DNA of 47,402 nt. It comes from Gammaproteobacteria bacterium. Its GTDB lineage: Bacteria; Pseudomonadota; Gammaproteobacteria; Pseudomonadales; Azotimanducaceae. The notes under the pieces were generated by a model. The model was given only the letters and a program-made list of their open reading frames with translations. It was not told the origin of the DNA and did no database searches. This document shows, piece by piece, positions 27,544-38,010 of the stretch. Position 1 is the first letter of the stretch; each line of letters begins with the position of its first letter. The DNA lies in contig VYDB01000082.1 in the NCBI GenBank assembly GCA_009843635.1, positions 1 through 47,402 on the forward strand, read 5' to 3'. The translations under genes were made by a program, and so were the position numbers.

Positions 27544-28466
27544 AGTTCCCGGAGTTCAATTTCGACTTCATGGGCCGCCGCAAGCTGGCGGGGAGCCTGT
27601 CGATCGGCTTGATCGTGCTGTCGCTGGCCTCCTTGACCTTCAACGGCCTCAATTTCGGCCTCGACTTCACTGGCGGCACCTTGGTGGAGGTCGGCTTTCC
27701 CGAGAGCGCCGATCCCGAAGCGCTGCGCAGCCAACTCGACGACGCCGGCTTCGTCAACGGCGTGGTGCAGCACTTCGGCTCCGAGACGGAAGTGCTGATC
27801 CGCATGCCGCCCCAGGCAGAGGGCGATCCGGCGGGCCTTGGCGACCGCATTCTGGACACCATTCGTCAGCAGGCGCCCGGCGCCGAGATGCGCCAGTCCA
27901 ACTTTGTCGGCCCAGTGGTGGGGGAGGAACTGGCCGAGAGCGCCGGGCTCGCCATTCTCACCGCCCTGGCGGTGGTGATGCTCTACATCCTGTTCCGCTT
28001 CACCAAGCAGTTCTCGGTTGGCGCCGTGGTGGCCCTAGCCCATGACGTCACCTTGGTGCTGGGCCTGTTCTCCCTCCTGCAATGGACCTTCGACCTGGCC
28101 GTGGTGGCGGCGGTGCTGGCGGTGGTGGGCTACTCGCTTAACGACACCATCGTGGTTTCGGACCGGATTCGGGAGAATTTCCGCACCCTGCGCAAGGGCG
28201 CGCCCGTCGAGGTCATCAACCGCTCCCTCAACCAGACCCTGGGCCGCACCTTGGTGACCTCCATGACCACCCTGTTCGTGCTGCTGGCGCTGCTCATCGC
28301 CGGCGGCGAGGGCATCCGCGGCTTTGCCGCAGCGCTCACCTTTGGCGTGGTGATCGGCACCTACTCGTCAATCTACATCGCCGCCAACATGCTGTTGGTG
28401 ATGAACATCTCCCGCGAAGACCTGGTGGTGCCAGAGAAGGAGAGCGCCAAGGAGTCCTATCCCTAG
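27540..28466 (+). CDS. secF: Protein translocase subunit SecF
   Basis: Partner of SecD in the inner membrane. The 308-residue protein starts with a membrane helix after a basic MGRRKLAGS, followed by LNFGLDFTGGTLVEVGFP (D1-like motif), a short periplasmic domain and five helices, with VVGYSLNDTIVVSDRIREN as the F4 segment. It overlaps the secD end by an ATGA junction. Its TAG stop shares a CTAG with the convergent suhB, so no terminator lies between them. Confidence 0.97.
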   Translation: MKFPEFNFDFMGRRKLAGSLSIGLIVLSLASLTFNGLNFGLDFTGGTLVEVGFPESADPEALRSQLDDAGFVNGVVQHFGSETEVLIRMPPQAEGDPAGLGDRILDTIRQQAPGAEMRQSNFVGPVVGEELAESAGLAILTALAVVMLYILFRFTKQFSVGAVVALAHDVTLVLGLFSLLQWTFDLAVVAAVLAVVGYSLNDTIVVSDRIRENFRTLRKGAPVEVINRSLNQTLGRTLVTSMTTLFVLLALLIAGGEGIRGFAAALTFGVVIGTYSSIYIAANMLLVMNISREDLVVPEKESAKESYP

Positions 28467-29254
28467 CCTCTTAGGTGTCCCCGCAGGCAGGCCACCATCA
28501 ACTTGTAGCATCTGGGGTTGGCCGCCACGATGTCGCCGCTCTCGAAGTGCCGCTCCCCGCCTTCAAGATCGGAAACGAAGCCGCCGGCCTCCTTGACGAT
28601 CAACGATCCGGCGGCGATGTCCCAGGGCGCCAAGCCCATTTCCCAGAAGCCGTCGAGCCGTCCGCTGGCCACGTAGGCCAGGTCCAGCGCGGCCGAGCCT
28701 TGGCGGCGGATGTTTCGGCAGCTATCGGTGAACTCGGCCACCGCGGCGTTGAAGACGCCCAGCCGGCCCCGGGCGCCGGGTGGCAGCCCGGTGGCGACCA
28801 CGGCATCGCGCAAGCGGTGGGTGGCGCTGACCCGGATGCGCTTGCCGTTGAGTTGCGCGCCGGTGCCCCGGCTCGCCACCCACTCCTCGTTGCGCACTGG
28901 ATCGACGATCACGGCGTGCTCGATTTGCCGTCCGCGCCGTGCCGCGATGGAGATGGCGAAGTGGGGAATCCCCTGCAGGTAGTTGAGCGTCCCATCCAAC
29001 GGATCGATGAGCCAGGTGAATTCGGCGTCGGCGCGGTCTTCGCCGCTGCCTTCCTCGGCCAGCACCCCATGGTCCGGGTAGGCGTCGAGCAGCGTATCGA
29101 CGATGACCCGCTCCGCCTGCCGGTCGATGCTGGAGACGAAGTCGTTGGGGGCCTTTTCCTCCACCTTGAGCTCATCGAGCCGGTCCATGGCCTGCAGGAG
29201 GATTGGTGAGGCGCGGCGGGCGGCCCGCAATGCCATGTTGGCCATCGGCTGCAT
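28463..29254 (-). CDS. suhB: Inositol-1-monophosphatase SuhB
   Basis: A magnesium-dependent phosphatase; in E. coli SuhB also binds NusA and the rRNA antitermination complex. The 263 residues from the ATG at 29254 align with the E. coli start (MQPMANMALRAARRA). The metal ligands are Glu67 or Glu68 in LAEEGSG and Asp84/Asp87 in WLIDPLDGTLNY, and the second motif is GLAPWDIAAGSLIVKEAGG. An upstream extension is open but lacks homology. It diverges from trmJ with only 21 bases between start codons. Confidence 0.95.
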   Translation of the reverse strand: MQPMANMALRAARRASPILLQAMDRLDELKVEEKAPNDFVSSIDRQAERVIVDTLLDAYPDHGVLAEEGSGEDRADAEFTWLIDPLDGTLNYLQGIPHFAISIAARRGRQIEHAVIVDPVRNEEWVASRGTGAQLNGKRIRVSATHRLRDAVVATGLPPGARGRLGVFNAAVAEFTDSCRNIRRQGSAALDLAYVASGRLDGFWEMGLAPWDIAAGSLIVKEAGGFVSDLEGGERHFESGDIVAANPRCYKLMVACLRGHLRG

Positions 29255-29275
29255 GGCCGGGTAGCCTACTGCAAT

Positions 29276-30019
29276 ATGAGCCTGAACAACATCCGCATCG
29301 TGCTCGTGGCGACCAGCCATCCGGGCAACATCGGCGCCGCCGCTCGGGCCATGAAGACCATGGGGCTGTCACAACTGGTGTTGGTCAATCCCCTGCGCTA
29401 TCCCGACCCCCAGGCCGAGTGGCGGGCGGCTGCGGCCACCGACGTGCTGGACCAGTGCCGGGTTTGCGCGAGACTCGACGAGGCGATCGCGGATTGCCAT
29501 TGGGTGGTCGGCGCCAGCGCCCGGCCAAGGCGCATCCCCTGGCCGGTGGCGGATGTCCGCACCTCAGCGCGGAAGCTGCTCGCCGAAGCGGGCGCCGGCC
29601 AGGTGGCGGTGCTGTTCGGGCGCGAAGCGGATGGTCTCAGCAACGAGGAGCTGCAACGCTGCAACGCGCATCTGCGCATTCCCGCCTCCCCGGACTATCC
29701 ATCCTTGAACTTGGCCATGGCCGTGCAGGTGGTCGCTTACGAACTCTTCGCCGCCCAAGCGGTGCCGGCCGAACCCGAGTGGGACCGGCCCCCGGCCACT
29801 GCCGCAGAAGTTGAAGCCATGCTGGCCCACTTGGAGCGGCTGCTGGTGGCCACGGACTTCCTCGACCCTGACAACCCAGGCCAAACCCTGACCCGCCTTC
29901 GCCGCCTGGCCGCCCGCGCCGGCCTGGACCAGACCGAAGTGCGCATGCTGCGCGGCATCGCCACCCAGTTGGAAAAGCGCAGCGCCGTTCCTGCGCGACG
30001 ACGCCCTAGCTCGGCGTAG
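29276..30019 (+). CDS. trmJ: tRNA (cytidine/uridine-32-2'-O)-methyltransferase TrmJ
   Basis: A SPOUT-class methyltransferase that modifies position 32 of tRNAs. The 247-residue protein starts IRIVLVATSHPGNIGAAARA, has GREADGLSNEEL and LNLAMAVQVVAYEL as the knotted S-adenosylmethionine site, and a helical C-terminal extension typical of TrmJ. Its place next to suhB matches the E. coli order suhB-trmJ. There is no ribosome site before the ATG, so the transcript may be leaderless or very short-leadered. Its 3' end overlaps the convergent SRPBCC gene by 14 bases. Confidence 0.95.
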   Translation: MSLNNIRIVLVATSHPGNIGAAARAMKTMGLSQLVLVNPLRYPDPQAEWRAAAATDVLDQCRVCARLDEAIADCHWVVGASARPRRIPWPVADVRTSARKLLAEAGAGQVAVLFGREADGLSNEELQRCNAHLRIPASPDYPSLNLAMAVQVVAYELFAAQAVPAEPEWDRPPATAAEVEAMLAHLERLLVATDFLDPDNPGQTLTRLRRLAARAGLDQTEVRMLRGIATQLEKRSAVPARRRPSSA

Positions 30020-30470
30020 GCCCTTCGTTCGCCAGAGCCTCGGCGCGCTGCTTCAAGCCATGGGCGACGCTGTTGAATCCCCGTTCGACGGCCCGGCCAG
30101 CGACAGCCACCACCAAGGGCGTCAGCAAGCCACTGAAGGCGTCCGTCGTGACGTAGCGGCACTGGCTCTCGCCTAGGGCTTCAAGCCGCTGTTCCCGCAA
30201 TGCGTAGAGCAGGAAGCGAGTGCCCATGGTGGTGTACCACGCCAGCAGGCGGGGCGGCTCGACGGCGCAGACAACTTCCGTCTGCTTCAGGCGAATGGGC
30301 CCCATCTGGACCCGCATATCCACCCGAGAGCCCCTCTTGAGGTCGGTTTTGACCGAAGGCGTGAACGGATTCCACTCACCGTAGTCCTCCACCGCGGCGA
30401 GCACCTGCCAAGCGGTCTCGATGGGCGCGTCTATGGTGATCTGGTCGGAACGCAGGACGTGGTTGAACAT
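30006..30470 (-). CDS. SRPBCC (START/Bet v1-like) family protein
   Basis: A 154-residue single helix-grip domain: SDQITIDAPIETAWQVLA at the start, the conserved EDYGEWNPFTPSV turn, and a C-terminal helix ending near the stop. Such proteins bind hydrophobic ligands, for example sterols, polyketides or aromatic compounds, in a central cavity, and some act as aromatases or cyclases. GAGGAAA before the ATG at 30470 supports the start. It is the last gene of the minus-strand run that begins with iscR. The specific ligand is unknown. Confidence 0.83.
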   Translation of the reverse strand: MFNHVLRSDQITIDAPIETAWQVLAAVEDYGEWNPFTPSVKTDLKRGSRVDMRVQMGPIRLKQTEVVCAVEPPRLLAWYTTMGTRFLLYALREQRLEALGESQCRYVTTDAFSGLLTPLVVAVAGRAVERGFNSVAHGLKQRAEALANEGPTPS

Positions 30471-30490
30471 AAGTCAATTTCCTCTAACGC

Positions 30491-31471
30491 CTATGGTTGC
30501 GCCAGCCACCCCTCCGAGAGCGCCCAGAGCCGCTCGGCGACCGAGGCATCGAGCGCATCGGCGGAGGGTTGGCTGACGGCGCAGCGATCATAATAGCGCC
30601 CGCCTTGCACATCGGCATCCGTCGCGCAGAAGAGGGTGGTCTGGGCGCCTTGCAGCGGCGACAGCAGCGCCACCTTCGCCGGGGCAGCCATCAGCCACTG
30701 AATCGGCCGAACGCGGCTGTAGGACTCAAGCCCGCCAGCGACCAGATTGGTGTACACCGAGCCCGGATGCAGGGACAGCGCGCGAAAATGTCCCGTCCCG
30801 CCATGTCGGCGATGCAGCGCCTGCGCCATGTGGATCAGCGCCAGCTTGGATTGGCCGTAGGCGTCCCAGGGGTTGTGGTTGGCGAATGCCGCAAGCAGGC
30901 GATCGTTGCGGCCCCGCACGTGTTGATGCGAGGTCACGTTCAGCACCCGGGCGTCGCCATCCGCCTCCGCGCTGTCGATGAGCAGGGGCAGCAGCAGGCT
31001 GGTGAGATGGAAGGTGCCGAGGTAGTTGATGCGCCAGTGGATTTCCACGCCGTCCGCCGAGCGTTCCACTTGGCGCCGCAACGCCAGCAGGTCGTGGAGG
31101 ATGCCGGCATTGTTGATCAGCACGTGCAGTGCGCCGAAGCGCTCACGATACCAATCAGCAAAGGCGCTGACGCTGTCGCGGTCGGCAAGGTCCAGCGTCC
31201 GCGCCGTCAAGCTGCCGCCACCGGTGCCGAGTTCGGCCCGCAGCGCTTGCTGCAGCGAGTCGGCGTCGCTTCGTCCGGTCGCCACGACTTGAGCGCCCCA
31301 ACGGGCCAACTGAAGGGCGACCATGTAGCCCATGGAACCCTCTGATGTGCCGGTCACGATCACCTGCCGGCCGGTCATGTCCACGGGCTTGGCCATGGGC
31401 TTCGGACCGAGGAGCCGGGCTAGGTGCAGTGCGCCGTCGCGGATCATGGTGGGGAGGTGCGTGCTGGCCAT
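30491..31471 (-). CDS. SDR family oxidoreductase, retinol-dehydrogenase-like
   Basis: A 326-residue SDR with an N-terminal extension of about 35 residues before the Rossmann fold. The glycine motif reads TGTSEGSMG (40-48) instead of TGxxxGIG, with the spacing changed by one residue. Catalytic residues Ser181, Tyr205 and Lys209 (YGQSK) and NNAG (120-123) are intact. A C-terminal domain with SLHPGSVYTNL resembles retinol dehydrogenase/WW-oxidoreductase relatives, which act on isoprenoid or steroid alcohols. AAGGA before the ATG supports the start; the preceding SDR gene stops nine bases upstream. Confidence 0.85.
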   Translation of the reverse strand: MASTHLPTMIRDGALHLARLLGPKPMAKPVDMTGRQVIVTGTSEGSMGYMVALQLARWGAQVVATGRSDADSLQQALRAELGTGGGSLTARTLDLADRDSVSAFADWYRERFGALHVLINNAGILHDLLALRRQVERSADGVEIHWRINYLGTFHLTSLLLPLLIDSAEADGDARVLNVTSHQHVRGRNDRLLAAFANHNPWDAYGQSKLALIHMAQALHRRHGGTGHFRALSLHPGSVYTNLVAGGLESYSRVRPIQWLMAAPAKVALLSPLQGAQTTLFCATDADVQGGRYYDRCAVSQPSADALDASVAERLWALSEGWLAQP

Positions 31472-31480
31472 GGTTGGTCC

Positions 31481-32461
31481 TTAGGTTGCGTCGGGCGTGA
31501 ATGGGCGCAGCAGCGCCTCGCTGGCCGTCCAGAGCCGGGCTCCGTTTTGCGCGTCGCTGGCCTTCGGCGAGGGGGCCTTCTCGCGCATCATGTGCAGGTA
31601 GAGGCCGGTGCGCTCGCCAGCGGCATCGGAGCAGCAGAGGTAGGTCACCGGCAACGCGGCCTTGGTTGGGCTTAGGAAAAAGGCCCGCATGATCGGGGCG
31701 AGCACCGGCTTCAGCAACAGCGGCGCCTCGCGGGCGATGTTGGAATTGATCGGCCCAGGGCAGAGCGCATGCACTGCAACGCCGATTTGTCCGGTCGGAT
31801 TCAATCGCCGGGAGAGCTCCTGAGCGAAGGTGCATTGGGCCAGCTTGCTCTGTCCGTAGTGCTTAAGGCCATCCTTGAAGGGATAGTTGACGAATGCGCC
31901 GAGACGGTCGAAGTCGATCGGCTCGGCGCCGCGATGGGTTTCGGAAGACACCAGGACGATGCGTGGCGCCTCGCTGCCGCCATCCGCAGGCTTGAGCAGG
32001 CCGTCCTCAAGCAGGCGCCCCACCAGCGCCCGGTTGGCCAGGAAGTGCACCGCGAACATCAACTCGAACCCTTGTTTGGACTGGCTGGCCTGGCGTGGCA
32101 TCAGGCCGGCGTTCAAGACCGCGATGTCGATGCGAGGCGTGGTGGCGCGCAGTTCGTCGCACAGCCCGTGGACGCTCGCCAGATCGGCCAGATCCACCTT
32201 GAGCATCCGCACCTCGCCGGAGTCCGAGCGGCGTTTCACGTCCTCGCCAGCTTCGGGATGGCCGCTGCGGCAGGCCATCAGCACGGTGCCGCCGCGCTGC
32301 GCCAGATCGATGGCGACGGCCTTTCCGAGCCCGCTGTTGGCGCCGGTCACCAAGCAGAACTTGCCGTCGATGCGCCGGCTCTTGGGCACCGGCTCGATGG
32401 CCGGCCTTTCCGTGGCCCGTTGGCCGATGGCCGCGCGCATGGCGCTCATGATGCTCTTCAT
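31481..32461 (-). CDS. SDR family oxidoreductase, retinol-dehydrogenase-like
   Basis: Also 326 residues, with a canonical cofactor motif TGANSGLG (39-46), LNAG (116-119), serine pair 172-173, Tyr202 and Lys206 in YGQSK. ACRSG after strand 2 suggests NADP binding. The YGQSKLA active-site string and overall length match the neighbouring SDR, so the two may come from an old duplication. ATGA overlap with the sulfotransferase gene implies translational coupling. Substrates are not predictable; alcohol/ketone steps on lipophilic molecules are the family norm. Confidence 0.87.
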   Translation of the reverse strand: MKSIMSAMRAAIGQRATERPAIEPVPKSRRIDGKFCLVTGANSGLGKAVAIDLAQRGGTVLMACRSGHPEAGEDVKRRSDSGEVRMLKVDLADLASVHGLCDELRATTPRIDIAVLNAGLMPRQASQSKQGFELMFAVHFLANRALVGRLLEDGLLKPADGGSEAPRIVLVSSETHRGAEPIDFDRLGAFVNYPFKDGLKHYGQSKLAQCTFAQELSRRLNPTGQIGVAVHALCPGPINSNIAREAPLLLKPVLAPIMRAFFLSPTKAALPVTYLCCSDAAGERTGLYLHMMREKAPSPKASDAQNGARLWTASEALLRPFTPDAT

Positions 32462-33723
32462 GGGGACCGCTCGCTTGGAATGCGGTAGCGCGCCCGATAG
32501 GCGGCGAAGCCATCCCCTGCTTCGGTGCCGCCCAGGCCAAAGTCGGCGGCGTTGTAGATGTGCTTGCCGTGGCGGTGCTGCGGGTTGCGCTTCAGGGCCA
32601 AGGCGGCGGCGCCCTGCGCCTCAGCACAAAAGGGGATGCCGGCTTGGCGGTAGATCCGTTCGAGCTGCGCCTTTGGGTCGCGCAACAGGTCGCGGTAGAG
32701 CACATCCACGAAGCGAGCCGGGTCGGTTTGGCATCGCACCGCCTCGGCGCGCTCGATCATCCGGCAGACTTTCGCCGTCCAGTGGCGGGCAATCGCCTTG
32801 GCATCGACCCGGTCGCTGAACACCCCCCGTCCATGGGCCACCATGCTGAGGAACGAGGCCAGGGCCACTTGCGGGTCGCGGTGGGTCTGCACCAGGGTCA
32901 AATCGGGGAAGGTCTTGAACGCGACGTCCAGATGTTCCAGGTGGTGGGGTGTCTTCAGCACCCAATGCTTGGCGGGCCGTTGCCAGTGCAGGACCTTTAG
33001 CAGGGTCCGCAGATCGCGGTAGGCCGGCGCATGGTCCTGCCCTTCCAGCCAGGTCGCGTAGCTTGGGACGCGCATCGTGGCTTCGGCGGTCTGGCTCATG
33101 AACGACAGGTCGAGCAGCAGGATGTCCTCCTCCGGCGCATCGTGGTCGATGGGGTGCACGGCAAAGAAGGCGGGCGCGAGGTAGGCGATGGTCCGTTCGG
33201 CCAATCGGCCCCGCCGCAGCCGCCGGTCGAACCCCCGGTCGCCCTCGCCGGGCAGAGGCGCGGGATTGAGGGCCTCCCAGGACATCAGCGCCCGCATGTC
33301 GGGATGCGAGGCCACCAGCCGGTGCAACGCGGTGGTGCCGGTGCGCTGCAAGCCGGCGATCAGCACCACCTTGCCCAGTTCCAGGTCATGGATTTGCGGA
33401 TGGCGCTTGAGCATCTGCTGTGCCCGCAGCCGGTTCGCCAAGGCGCCCTCGATGCGTTGGCGTTGCAGCAGAACGCCGGTGGGCGTGAGTTCGGCCTCGT
33501 CGTTGATGGCACGCACCAGCACCCGCAGCGCCGTCAGGCAGCGTTCGTCACCCAGATCCTCCAATCCCGTGCGCCGACGGGCATTGGCCAGCATCCGGTC
33601 GGCATCGAGCCGCCGCAGCGAACCGGCGCGCGGCGTTCGGCGCGCCAAGGCGTTGAAGGCAGCCACGGGCCAGGGCCGATAGGGGCGGGCGTAGTCGGTC
33701 GGCGTTTCGGCAATGGGTTTCAC
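32458..33723 (-). CDS. Sulfotransferase family protein
   Basis: Transfers sulfate from PAPS to a hydroxyl or amine. The 421-residue protein has a helical N-terminal region and then the 5'-phosphosulfate loop AGLQRTGTTALHRL (123-136), followed by HPDMRALMSWEALNP. The RDPQVALASFLSM segment matches the 3'-phosphate-binding motif with Arg and Ser. This long sulfotransferase type is common in marine and soil bacteria with lipid or steroid clusters, and its substrates are largely unassigned. The GTG start at 33723 is chosen because it forms a GTGA overlap with the DUF1214 stop; a longer open frame lacks homology. Confidence 0.88.
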   Translation of the reverse strand: MKPIAETPTDYARPYRPWPVAAFNALARRTPRAGSLRRLDADRMLANARRRTGLEDLGDERCLTALRVLVRAINDEAELTPTGVLLQRQRIEGALANRLRAQQMLKRHPQIHDLELGKVVLIAGLQRTGTTALHRLVASHPDMRALMSWEALNPAPLPGEGDRGFDRRLRRGRLAERTIAYLAPAFFAVHPIDHDAPEEDILLLDLSFMSQTAEATMRVPSYATWLEGQDHAPAYRDLRTLLKVLHWQRPAKHWVLKTPHHLEHLDVAFKTFPDLTLVQTHRDPQVALASFLSMVAHGRGVFSDRVDAKAIARHWTAKVCRMIERAEAVRCQTDPARFVDVLYRDLLRDPKAQLERIYRQAGIPFCAEAQGAAALALKRNPQHRHGKHIYNAADFGLGGTEAGDGFAAYRARYRIPSERSP

Positions 33724-34928
33724 GAAGAAAGGGGCGCTTGCCGCAACATGGCGAGGTCGCCGAGCTTGACCACGCGGGTGACGGGTTCGGGATGGGCCAC
33801 CGCCCGCACCCAGCGAAAGCACATGGTGCCCGACCGATGGCCGGCGGTTTCGATCCAGTTCGGAAGTTCCGGATCTTCATGGGCCACCACCAGCCGGATG
33901 CTGCCGTCGGCCTCATGGCGCGCCAAGTGCTTGTTGGTGTGAATCCGGTGGTAGCGGTAATCCAAGGACTCCATCCAGTAGTTGTTGAGCTGGAAGTTCC
34001 AGTACTCGCAATCCGGCGGCACCACTTCGATGACCAGCGCCTCGTCTTCGGCCAGCGCCCAATGGCTGTGGTAGTAGGCGATGTTGGGATCGCCGCCGGC
34101 GGTGTTGGACACGTCCTGATCGAAGCGGGGCAGGGCGTTGCTGTGGCGCTGAAAGCCCTGCGCCCACTTGGCGAACATCAGGGGCGCGCCCGCCACCAGC
34201 AGGCCCGCTGACTTCAGGCCCTCGTCCAAATGCTGGGGCGTCAAGGGGGCAGGGCGCTTGTCCTCCGCTGCGCAGTTGATCCGCTCAATGGTCAGTTCGG
34301 CCGGTTCTTCCCGTTCGCGGTCGGCAAAGGTCTGACGCACGATCAAGGTGCCCGTTTCGGACGTCATCGGCAGCCAGTTGCTGGGCTGGGGACGTTGGCT
34401 CAGGACCAGCTCGAAGCGTCCCTCGGCGTCCAACTCGATCTCGGTGGCGTCGATGTGGCCCGTGGGCGGCAGGCCGCCACTCTGCCCATAGCGGCCGACG
34501 TGGGTGCCGAAGACGAGGTAGGTCACGGTATTGCGCCGCCCGGTGATGCGGTACTCGTAGTCCCCGTTGATCGCCGCGGTCAGGTAGTGATTGTCCGGGT
34601 TGTCAGCGCCGAGCTTGACGGTCTCGTGGGCCACGCGATGCAGCACCGGGGCGTTCGGGTCGGCGTGTTCGACGAAGGCCATCAATCCCCCGCGCGCCAA
34701 GCGGCTGAGATAGCGATAGCCCTCGGCTTGGTTGAAGGCGTCCTGCGGCGTGCCGGGAAAGCTCAGCGAGGCCCCGGCGGCCTTCAGGGTGTCGCAGAAT
34801 TCATCCCACGCCCGCCCACTGACCACCCGCTCGGCGGCGAGGTCGTCGGGCGTCTTGCCGGTGAGCCTTCTCGCAAGCAACAAAAGCCTGCGGAACGCCG
34901 CCAGCAATCCGATTGCGAGCTTCCTCAC
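33720..34928 (-). CDS. DUF1214-domain protein
   Basis: A 402-residue protein whose C-terminal half carries the DUF1214 signature: [20 protein letters not shown] followed by the [19 protein letters not shown] region. The domain is often found with DUF1254 and has no established reaction. The N-terminal part begins with a basic-hydrophobic stretch ([20 protein letters not shown]) that might be a membrane anchor or weak signal. GTG 34928 is chosen because it overlaps the iscS stop as GTGA; a downstream start is possible. Linked to a sulfotransferase and two SDRs, it probably serves the same unknown pathway. Confidence 0.8.
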
Positions 34929-36070
34929 GTCGCCCGTAGCCCCGACACCACTTCCACCACCCGCCGTGCCGCGTAGTCCACCTCCTCCTCGGTGGTGAAG
35001 CGGCCGATGGTGAAGCGCAGGCTGGCGTGGGCGATCTCGTCGGGGACGCCGAGGGCGCTGAGGACGTAGGATGGCTCTATGCTGGCGGACGTGCAGGCGG
35101 AGCCGCTGGAGACGGCGACGTCGTCGAGGGCCATCAGCAGGGTTTCGCCGTCGATGCCGGCGAAGCCGACGTTGAGGTTGCCGGGCAGCCGCCGGTCCTC
35201 GTCGCCGTTCAGCACCGCGCCGGGGGCTTGCTTCAAGTGCGACCACAGGCGCTTGCGCAGGGCCAGGATGCGGGCGTTTTCGGTCTCCATGACCCGGCCC
35301 AGGATGGCGCACGCCTCGCCCATGCCCACCACTTGGTGGGTGGCCAAGGTGCCGGAGCGCATGCCGCGTTCGTGCCCGCCGCCGTGCATCTGCGGACGCA
35401 GGCGCATGGGCGGCTCCCGGCGCACGTACAGGGCGCCGACGCCCTTGGGGCCGTACATCTTGTGTGCCGACAGGCTGATCAGGTCGATGGCCATGGCCTG
35501 CACGTCCAAGGGGAGCTTGCCGGCGCTCTGGGCGGCGTCAACGTGGAAGCGAACCCCGGCGGCACGGCAGATTTGGCCGATGGCGGCGACATCGTTGACG
35601 ACGCCGATTTCGTTGTTCACGTGCATCAAGGAGACCAGCAGGGTGTCCTCGCGCAGCGCCTCGGCCACTTGATCGGGGCGGATGATGCCGTCCGCCGGTG
35701 GCACCAGCCAAGTGACCTCGAAGCCTTGGGCTTCAAGGTGGGCGCAGGTGTCGAGCACCGCCTTGTGCTCGATGGCGCTGGTGACGATGTGGCGGCGGGA
35801 TGCGCCTTCGGCCAAGCCCTTGATGGCCAAGTTGTCCGATTCGGTGGCGCCGGAGGTCCAGACGATTTCCCGGGGGTCGGCGTTGAGCAGCCGGGCCACG
35901 TCGGCGCGGGCCGCCTCCACCGCCTCTTCGGCATGCCAGCCGAAGGTGTGGCTGCGCGAGGCCGGGTTGCCGAAGTTGTCCTCCGCCAACAGGCAGGCGT
36001 TCATCTTGGCCGCCACTTGGGGGTCCACCGGCGTGGTGGCCGAGTAGTCTAGGTAAACTGCTTTGCGCAC
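34925..36070 (-). CDS. iscS: Cysteine desulfurase IscS, short C-terminus
   Basis: A PLP enzyme that converts cysteine to alanine and passes sulfur to acceptors. The 381 residues match E. coli IscS over nearly the whole length: [12 protein letters not shown] start, [24 protein letters not shown]-lysine K204 in [10 protein letters not shown], and catalytic Cys326 in [10 protein letters not shown]. It ends shortly after [15 protein letters not shown], about 22 residues before the E. coli end, so the tail implicated in IscU contact is missing. It starts with GTG. iscU does not follow; a DUF1214 gene overlaps its stop. Confidence 0.95.
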
Positions 36071-36094
36071 TTAAGCTTCGCCTTTCCGGTGAGC

Positions 36095-36115
36095 CAGTCC
36101 AGGTCCTGCAGACTG
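36095..36115 (-). promoter_or_regulatory. Hairpin between iscR and iscS
   Basis: CAGTC (36095-36099) pairs with GACTG (36111-36115), and CAG (36100-36102) with CTG (36106-36108) around a GTC loop, with CA bulged. It directly follows the iscR stop codon in the 45-base gap. In E. coli a structure in this gap protects the iscR part of the transcript when iscS mRNA is degraded; the same role here is inference. Confidence 0.45.
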
Positions 36116-36583
36116 TTAGGCGAGTTGGCTCAGAATGACCTCTTCGGCACGGCGGTCCTGCCGGTGGGCGATGGACTGCACCTCCCGGCGCTGCACCAAG
36201 CTGGCCAAGGTGACCCGCTTGAGGAAGCCGTCGATTTCCATGGACAGGTCGCTCCACAGGTCATGGGTGAGGCAGATGGTGCCGCCTTGGCAGTCGGCGG
36301 TGCCGTGGCAGCGGGTGGCGTCCACGCCCTCGCCGACCGCGGCAATGATCTCGGAAACACTGATCGACTCCAAGGCCGCTCCGAGCCGGTAGCCGCCGCC
36401 CGGCCCGCGCAGGCTCTCCAGCAGCCCAGCGCGCTTCAAGCGGCCGAAAAGCTGTTCCAAGTAGGACGGCGAAATGCCCTGCCGCTGTGCGATGTCCGTC
36501 ACGCTCACCGGCCCCGATTGCCGGTGCAGCGCGATGTCGAGCATGGCGGTGACCGCATAGCGGCCCTTGGTCGTCAGGCGCAT
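36116..36583 (-). CDS. iscR: Fe-S cluster regulator IscR
   Basis: An Rrf2-family winged-helix regulator that binds a [2Fe-2S] cluster and represses or activates genes depending on cluster supply. The 155-residue protein starts [19 protein letters not shown] and has the recognition region [19 protein letters not shown] with SLRGPGGGY for the wing. Cluster ligands Cys92, Cys98, Cys104 and His107 are in the same positions as in E. coli. The open frame continues upstream, but homology begins at the ATG at 36583. It heads the minus-strand run ending at 30006 and diverges from a crotonase gene. Confidence 0.96.
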
Positions 36584-36613
36584 GGCGTCATGCCCCCTGC
36601 CCACTGTGCGATG

Positions 36614-36683
36614 ATTGCGCTTGAGTATGCAATAGCCAGCCCAATGCGTCCACTTCAAGCGCCGGGGTGCTGCTCTTGAGTAT
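36614..36683. promoter_or_regulatory. Repeated TTGAGTAT boxes in iscR/crotonase spacer
   Basis: TTGAGTAT occurs at 36621-36628 and again at 36676-36683, starts 55 bases apart, in the AT-richer spacer between iscR and the crotonase gene. The first copy lies within an inverted repeat ATTGC (36614-36618) / GCAAT (36629-36633). Read on the minus strand, ATACTCAAG partly resembles one half of type 1 IscR sites. It may be an IscR operator; the match is incomplete. Confidence 0.4.
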
Positions 36684-36711
36684 CGTCGGTTTGTAGGGAA
36701 AACGGAGGACC

Positions 36712-37581: not shown

Positions 37582-38010
37582 ATGGCCGTGGAGCGCACTT
37601 TATCCATCGTCAAGCCCGATGCGGTGGCCCGTAACCTCATTGGCGAGATCTACTCGCGCTTTGAACGCGGCGGCTTGAAGATCGTCGCCGCCAAGATGAT
37701 GCGGCTCGACAAGCCCCGGGCCGCAGGCTTCTACGCCGAACATGTGGGCAAGCCGTTTTACGAGGGGCTGTGCGCCTACATGACCTCCGGCCCCATCATG
37801 GTGCAGGTCTTGGAAGGCGAGGACGCCATCGCCTTGAACCGCCGGCTGATGGGTGCCACCAACCCGGCGGAAGCGGCGCCGGGCACCATCCGGGCGGACT
37901 TCGCCGAATCCCTGGACGCCAATTCGGTGCACGGCTCGGACGCCCCGGCGTCGGCCCTCCGCGAGATAGCCTACTTCTTCGAACCATCGGAGATCCTCTC
38001 CGGCCCTTGA
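37582..38010 (+). CDS. ndk: Nucleoside diphosphate kinase
   Basis: Moves gamma-phosphates between nucleoside triphosphates and diphosphates through a phosphohistidine. The 142-residue protein has [12 protein letters not shown] at the start, the Kpn-loop region, and the active His117 in NSVHGSDAP. Length and sequence are typical. GGAGA before the ATG supports the start. It opens the ndk-rlmN-rodZ-hisS-yfgM-bamB-der series; rlmN begins ten bases after its stop. Confidence 0.98.

Follow-up and report, generated by a model that had tools for sequence, protein, structure and literature searches.

The DNA analysed here (the window) is contig VYDB01000082.1 of assembly GCA_009843635.1, 47,402 nucleotides from a gammaproteobacterium of the Azotimanducaceae (genome G000). 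On its minus strand iscR, iscS, a DUF1214 gene, a sulfotransferase gene, two short-chain dehydrogenase/reductase genes (SDR1 and SDR2) and an SRPBCC gene follow one another, as established from the open reading frame (ORF) list, the sequence and family searches. The run is best read as two units joined by history, and the second of these, a transferable five-gene cassette, would convert a lipophilic alcohol, probably a sterol, into its sulfate ester; this reading as a whole is given an even chance. As parts of it, at the same level, iscR-iscS would be the remnant of an iron-sulfur cluster (ISC) locus in a lineage that uses only SUF, and the cassette would have ended up immediately after iscS within a small clade. 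Taken separately, sulfonation of a small lipophilic alcohol with 3'-phosphoadenosine 5'-phosphosulfate (PAPS) by the cassette is probable, and the case for a sterol as that alcohol is finely balanced.

The families were assigned as Rrf2/IscR, IscS, DUF1214 (PF06742), Sulfotransfer_3 (PF13469), adh_short (twice) and Polyketide_cyc2. The iscR gene (36116..36583, 155 amino acids) keeps a C-x5-C-x5-C-x2-H pattern, presumably the cluster ligands, and is separated by 45 bases from iscS (34925..36070, 381 amino acids), in which the active-site loop is kept and the C-terminal tail is missing. The first gene of the cassette, DUF1214 (33720..34928, 402 amino acids), overlaps iscS by four bases (GTGA) and is overlapped in the same way by the PAPS-type sulfotransferase gene (32458..33723, 421 amino acids; GTGA), which in turn overlaps SDR1 (31481..32461) by four bases (ATGA). 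After a 9-base gap SDR2 (30491..31471) follows, and after a further 20 bases the SRPBCC gene (30006..30470), assigned by family search to the lipid-binding Polyketide_cyc2 type. The exact junctions agree with the sequence-only reading, which had described a seven-gene run with no gap above 45 bases and three consecutive 4-base overlaps, and also in that iscU, hscBA and fdx are missing from the run. The mechanical ORFs of iscR, DUF1214 and sulfotransferase begin upstream of the genes as that reading had implied them; for DUF1214 and the sulfotransferase the shorter starts fit the alignments better.

The cassette was surveyed in 80 loci with a DUF1214 relative, some of them truncated by contig ends. 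A sulfotransferase gene adjoins DUF1214 in 72 of these and SDR1 is also present in 57, an order that exceeds chance, a judgement resting on this recurrence and not on expected-number sums that presuppose independent, randomly placed genes; SDR2 is found in 23 loci, SRPBCC in 30 and the complete set of five genes in 19. Among the 61 loci with a DUF1214 identity of at least 57%, the counts are 59 (sulfotransferase), 57 (SDR1), 23 (SDR2), 30 (SRPBCC) and 19 (all five).

The window sulfotransferase matches PF13469 with E 3.1e-43, and its GLQRTGTT and THRDP regions, which we take to bind PAPS, are conserved among the sulfotransferases (alignment A3, without L087, L108 and L168), so that family and motifs both place it with the PAPS sulfotransferases. 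Its nearest solved relatives are 2zq5 (E 1.2e-51) and 2z6v (E 1e-36), presumably the mycobacterial STF1 and STF9; they are the closest solved structures, yet remote from the window protein, and their PDB names give no acceptor. For both SDRs PRK06197 was the best NCBIfam match, below the cut-off; T39, G40, S173, Y202 and K206 are invariant across 17 aligned rows, with the TG loop (TGANSGLG in SDR1, TGTSEGSMG in SDR2) and the YxxxK motif (YGQSK in both) kept. In eight loci, seven actinobacterial ones and L036, a single open frame covers both sulfotransferase and SDR1 (Pfam check on L057 only), which suggests the same substrate for both. APS (adenosine 5'-phosphosulfate) kinase, CysNC or CysD stands beside the cassette in 14 of the 80 loci (L035, L041, L045, L046, L054-L057, L061-L063, L070-L072; Pfam on representatives); in the actinobacterial fusion loci (L045, L046, L053, L055, L056, L057 and L062) matches to fatty acid hydroxylase and Sulfotransfer_5 lie upstream, and CysD, CysNC and APS kinase lie downstream in six of the seven. 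Because of the PAPS and SDR motifs, the fusion and the PAPS-supply neighbours, PAPS-dependent sulfonation of an SDR product is the likely core of the cassette. The families thus fit the earlier suggestion that the added genes make, oxidise, sulfonate and bind a lipophilic molecule, and the sulfolipid or sulfosteroid idea that went with it gains from the PAPS-supply genes, the sulfotransferase-SDR fusion and the sterol reductase adjacent in some loci. An APS kinase in the genome itself says little, as it was found in 34 of 34 genomes searched (the window's own and four genus members lacking the cassette among them) and is common in control genomes too (11/14).

From the observed gene content, motifs, conservation, neighbours and co-occurrence we infer the sulfonation, the sterol substrate, the order of steps and the transcription. 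SDR1 and SDR2 would bring a hydroxyl or keto group to the right oxidation state, the hydroxyl would receive sulfate from PAPS through the sulfotransferase, and the SRPBCC protein would hold or carry the lipid. The sterol could come from the bacterium's own synthesis or from uptake from a host. In the window, transcription running on from the iscR promoter may drive the cassette genes, which would be incidental. The DUF1214 protein would be the constant partner, with no chemistry assigned to it. Its predicted model (mean predicted local distance difference test score, pLDDT, 85.7) superimposes on 6ans of Burkholderia cenocepacia with a template modelling (TM) score of 0.88 at 51% identity. The fold search returned at good score only proteins lacking a named function, cupin-like matches with TM <0.3 being left unused; 6ans and VPA0735 (3vb9, only a remote fold match) are both uncharacterised by title, and the fold therefore gives no function. 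The DUF1214 alignment (A2) excludes L069, which has a stop within its coordinates, and also the loci that came from genome searches. A 345-amino-acid gene beside a Mycolicibacterium sulfotransferase, considered as a DUF1214 homologue, was discarded (no Pfam family, no significant match).

A sterol is suggested by the company of sterol reductase. PF01222 (ERG4_ERG24) and a further SDR adjoin the cassette in five of the 80 loci (L032, L037, L040, L075, L076), and this adjacency occurs in three phyla-level groups, Acidobacteriota, Gemmatimonadota and Gammaproteobacteria; the best solved match of the L040 copy is the Delta14-sterol reductase 4quv. Short, remnant-like PF01222 matches were seen at the same position in L028 and L031. 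At genome level PF01222 was searched for in the genomes of 50 of the 80 loci and exceeded the cut-off in 40 of them vs 10 of 275 sampled Gammaproteobacteria, a sample that includes G000 and in which two of the ten positives are barely over the cut-off. Among 38 relatives, whose six carriers do not overlap with those 50 genomes, PF01222 was found in all six carriers with a DUF1214 identity of at least 73% (G000, G002, G005, G007, G008, G014) and in three of the 32 others (G004, G015, G021). Across 79 genomes of an actinobacterial order, centred on carrier G064, it exceeded the cut-off in three of three carriers and in none of the 76 others. The window's genome matches PF01222 twice (contigs C62 and C22) and so counts as sterol-modifying; on C22 (L182, 9814-13636) the sterol reductase stands side by side with another PF13469 sulfotransferase, the second besides that of the window, and with a paralog of DUF1214, a family with seven matches in G000 including the window's. 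Sibling G007, which has the iscRS-cassette arrangement of the window, encodes a 1270-amino-acid squalene epoxidase-cyclase fusion together with a Rieske oxygenase and a sterol reductase (L183, G007:C77, 3752-11364), so that its own sterol synthesis is one conceivable source of substrate.

Several results weigh against this reading. Squalene epoxidase (PF08491) has no match in G000, which is 96.46% complete and does not have the gene content of a sterol maker, and the window run, with no cyclase, epoxidase, CYP51 or reductase in it, is not a sterol biosynthesis cluster. In 50 genomes searched for squalene epoxidase (six relatives and 44 of the carriers searched for PF01222) strong matches (79-92 bits) were obtained in just ten; five further positives were weak (20-33 bits), the profile also matches E. 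coli and Caulobacter, and the cyclase half was checked only for the G007 protein. PF01222 is absent from 10 of the 50 carrier genomes (L035, L044, L047, L058, L059, L061, L063, L064, L071, L072); four of these (L047, L059, L061, L063) carry all five genes, and the cassette therefore needs no sterol reductase in its genome. Both Solimonas genomes searched were negative for PF01222, and distant DUF1214-sulfotransferase pairs (48-54%) occur in G027, G031 and G032 with no PF01222 match over the cut-off. SDR2 and SRPBCC are often absent from the surveyed loci, some of which are cut. The link between cassette and PF01222 may also partly reflect a common habitat, because steroid clusters are themselves a trait of sponge symbionts, being enriched in those of Ircinia according to the available text of Kelly et al. 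(PMC9531527).

The same results bear on a rather unlikely alternative, sulfonation of another lipid such as a quinone, a hopanoid, a long-chain alcohol or a hydroxy-fatty lipid. PF13469 relatives act on varied acceptors, and the fatty acid hydroxylase and second sulfotransferase family beside the actinobacterial form of the cassette (seven loci, fragmentary in L062) would fit such a lipid as well as a sterol, as would the ten carrier genomes lacking PF01222. The adjacency of PF01222 in three phyla and its co-occurrence with the cassette in two separate lineages argue for the sterol instead, though both are open to the habitat objection.

Breakdown in place of synthesis is also unlikely. The SDRs and DUF1214 would then take part in oxidising sterols or steroids of the host, with sulfonation serving to solubilise or trap an intermediate. 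Distant DUF1214 relatives do lie near steroid-degradation genes, which would fit this: of four plasmid regions viewed, the two from Novosphingobium (L167, L169) have DUF1214 in the vicinity of CysQ and an extradiol dioxygenase, with a steroid Delta-isomerase and a FadD3-type ligase also close by in one of the two, and in a Sphingobium plasmid region a sulfotransferase adjoins a DUF1214 match near ring-cleavage genes. The Novosphingobium context supports a role with steroids, not one in synthesis; an SDR and a TonB receptor accompany DUF1214 in L167 and L169. Rv3529c-Rv3531c are, we assume, a sulfotransferase, an SDR and a DUF1214 gene. This stretch falls within the mycobacterial cholesterol gene list in the portion of PMC6429209 available. 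Around the cassette itself none of 18 flanking-cluster representatives was a ring-degradation enzyme by Pfam, a weak point since most flanking genes are unannotated, and some loci instead have a sterol reductase and PAPS supply.

By record title the 61 closer loci belong to Gammaproteobacteria, Alphaproteobacteria, Acidobacteriota, Gemmatimonadota, Actinomycetota, Chloroflexota and Bacteroidota/Rhodothermota. The carriers from Acidobacteriota, Actinomycetota and Gemmatimonadota are solid because their contigs are long (L018 3.9 Mb, L048 3.8 Mb, and several more, including L028, at 0.3-0.65 Mb); the Chloroflexota, Alphaproteobacteria and Bacteroidota/Rhodothermota cases, on contigs of 5-69 kb, could be binning errors. 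Outside the genus, the close group has DUF1214 proteins 57-79% identical to the window's, with most values at 64-79%. A tree was computed from 62 of the 80 loci and the window, hand-picked and with group labels entered by hand, of which four read 'unk', by a quick method with SH-like approximate likelihood ratio test (SH-aLRT) support only. It requires five changes for Gammaproteobacteria, at least three of them forced by starred branches: one gammaproteobacterial group stands beside Acidobacteriota (81), L033 lies within a Gemmatimonadota-Acidobacteriota-Chloroflexota group (95), and L058 goes with Bacteroidota, Alphaproteobacteria and one acidobacterial row (85). Long branches part the close group from Solimonas and SAR86, and the program warns on those and on L064 and L080. 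Repeated horizontal transfer of the cassette fits this tree, several branches of which are weakly supported.

Many carriers are apparently metagenome-assembled genomes of sponge symbionts. The SB06, CO36, jk18x and p16x bins are presumably of sponge origin; some carriers, Solimonas, SAR86 and L063 for example, are not known to be symbionts. The bin prefixes RHO, COS, IRC and APA fit the sponge hosts Rhopaloeides, Coscinoderma, Ircinia and Aplysina in the available part of Robbins et al. 2021 (PMC8163846). A broader proposal is entertained tentatively, as a possibility: symbionts from several phyla would share the cassette as an operon by horizontal transfer and use it to produce sulfated sterols within sponges. 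If it is true, some sponge sterol sulfates would be of bacterial origin and DUF1214 would be a working part of sterol sulfonation; the cassette is a concrete, testable gene set for the question of who makes the sulfate, and it gives the DUF1214 family a strong genomic context. Detoxification, in which lipophilic compounds from host or diet would be sulfonated in a phase-II-like way, would suit transfer among bacteria living seemingly mostly in chemically rich hosts (the host being partly a matter of deduction). It is very improbable, given that linkage to the SDRs and SRPBCC, and in some loci to a sterol reductase, points to a defined substrate.

Attachment of the cassette to iscR-iscS was seen in three of nine genus genomes only, in the window, L013 (G007) and L014 (G008). 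The iscS/DUF1214 overlap is kept in the window and L013 and is replaced by a 126-base gap in L014; the DUF1214/sulfotransferase junction is -4 in all three. The iscRS block points opposite to trmJ and ndk in this small clade. L015 (G002) begins within DUF1214 at a contig end, where the attachment cannot be judged. The five other genus genomes (G001, G003, G004, G005, G006) have iscS with no cassette behind it, as longer stretches of each confirmed: in G001 and G006 the sole DUF1214 relative is a distant one (43-44%), DUF1214 has no match in G003 and G004, and G005 has the cassette, lacking SDR2, on a different contig from iscS. No cassette gene was found within 1.5 kb on each side of iscS in 27 iscS loci outside G000, G007 and G008, and two of the 80 cassette-type loci contain iscS; both come from this genus, and the window adds to them. 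The link of iscRS to the cassette is thus very likely incidental, and of the gene order whose conservation the sequence-only reading had made its test, the cassette part (DUF1214-sulfotransferase-SDR1) held up in relatives and the joining to iscRS did not.

That reading had favoured an IscR-controlled, iron-responsive sulfolipid pathway with IscS helping in sulfur supply, which we now regard as highly unlikely, and an iron-responsive operon is rejected as a general feature. The pathway would agree with how closely the window genes are spaced and with their three overlaps, with an IscR that looks intact, and with the lack of any promoter-like or minus-strand terminator-like match inside the run in a consensus scan, the only scan made. 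It is opposed by the restricted attachment, the gap in L014 and the rarity of iscS beside the cassette, and iscR was not found beside iscS in G001, G004 and G006 (L129, L153, L127). PAPS sulfotransferases use sulfate, not the IscS persulfide, whose sulfur has an oxidation level unsuited to PAPS; because of this chemistry, and because the cassette elsewhere lies beside CysD, CysN-C and APS kinase, IscS as the sulfur source was rejected. In G004 a stretch like that upstream of iscR sits shortly before iscS, as if iscR had been deleted.

The iscRS side of the locus is ordinary. IscU (PF01592) had no match in G000 or in any of the nine genus genomes (90-99% complete), and was matched in 12 of 14 control genomes and 12 of 38 relatives; SUFBD gave two matches in each of the nine. 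Asked whether iscU or suf lies elsewhere in the genome, these searches answer no for the first and yes for the second. The C-terminal tail of IscS presumably serves IscU docking. From the active-site loop to the stop, IscS has 61-69 residues in 13 of 13 measurable genomes lacking IscU, and 82 residues with a common SPLW-type tail in 11 of 11 genomes with IscU (30 iscS loci, L123-L152, were examined and 24 measured; the other six, all IscU-less, had no motif match and were left uncounted). The tail seems to have been lost together with IscU, and its loss can be seen as a sign of an IscS freed from the scaffold. The absence of iscU, considered as a possible oddity, was set aside as ordinary, because Fe-S assembly is SUF-only in the genus and the tail is gone in the measured IscU-less relatives. 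Compared with the ISC operon iscRSUA-hscBA-fdx, the window has iscR, iscS and the neighbours trmJ and suhB in common and differs in that its genome has no IscU match and its IscS has no long tail; it was therefore not counted as a member. The order trmJ-iscR-iscS-ndk is complete in 7 of 19 IscU-less genomes and partial in others (1.5 kb on each side of iscS), and is presumably ancestral.

Among described systems, the steroid clusters of Ircinia symbionts (Kelly et al. 2022, PMC9531527) are, as far as their available text goes, likewise found in sponge symbionts of many phyla, with signs of horizontal transfer and a Delta14-sterol reductase; they are ERG24-CYP51-LSS biosynthesis operons, none of whose genes is in the window run, and the words sulfotransferase and sulfat had no match in that text. 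Sterol synthesis with methyltransferases in sponge symbionts (Brown et al. 2023, PMC10070321, in its available part) involves de novo sterol genes, of which G007 has the epoxidase-cyclase step, and differs in that it involves no sulfonation, with no word beginning sulf- in the same portion. The sulfotransferase of an Entotheonella polyketide cluster (PMC12858407) is likewise a sponge-symbiont gene tied to a sulfonated product, and differs in belonging to a lipodiscamide-type assembly line, with no sterol link stated in the available text. A literature search for DUF1214 together with sulfotransferase gave no match, its scope leaving out most subscription journals and all bioRxiv preprints; DUF1214 alone matched only work on eukaryotic genome quality, and in literature on sponge symbiont sulfotransferases or sterol sulfates, searched partly by title and mainly outside subscription journals, no description of the five-gene set was found.

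The run is bounded on the left by trmJ (29276..30019, plus strand), which converges on it with a 14-base overlap of its 3' end with that of SRPBCC; its right-hand limit is an enoyl-CoA hydratase gene (PRK08259; 36712..37491, plus strand) that diverges from iscR. A suhB-type inositol monophosphatase gene (28463..29320, minus strand) adjoins trmJ here and in relatives too; ndk (37582..38010, plus strand) adjoins iscS in relatives with the presumed ancestral order. In the region upstream of iscR (36584..36711, minus strand) GCTATTGCATACTCAA(C/G)CGCAATCATCGCAC is common to the window, L013 and L014, and a consensus scan found no sigma-70-like match there. No RNA elements or tRNAs were found in the window, and an island of odd composition was discounted, as the guanine-cytosine fraction is 0.64-0.68 throughout. 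At other loci, genes of one cluster precede the acidobacterial cassettes of L017, L019, L020, L021, L023, L025, L026, L068 and L088; in L090 this cluster reads as a P-type ATPase plus Band 7. Additional Band 7 proteins accompany them, and one of these begins with a histidine-rich stretch. A TetR-type neighbour was seen in L059, L061, L063 and L070-L072 (Pfam on two).

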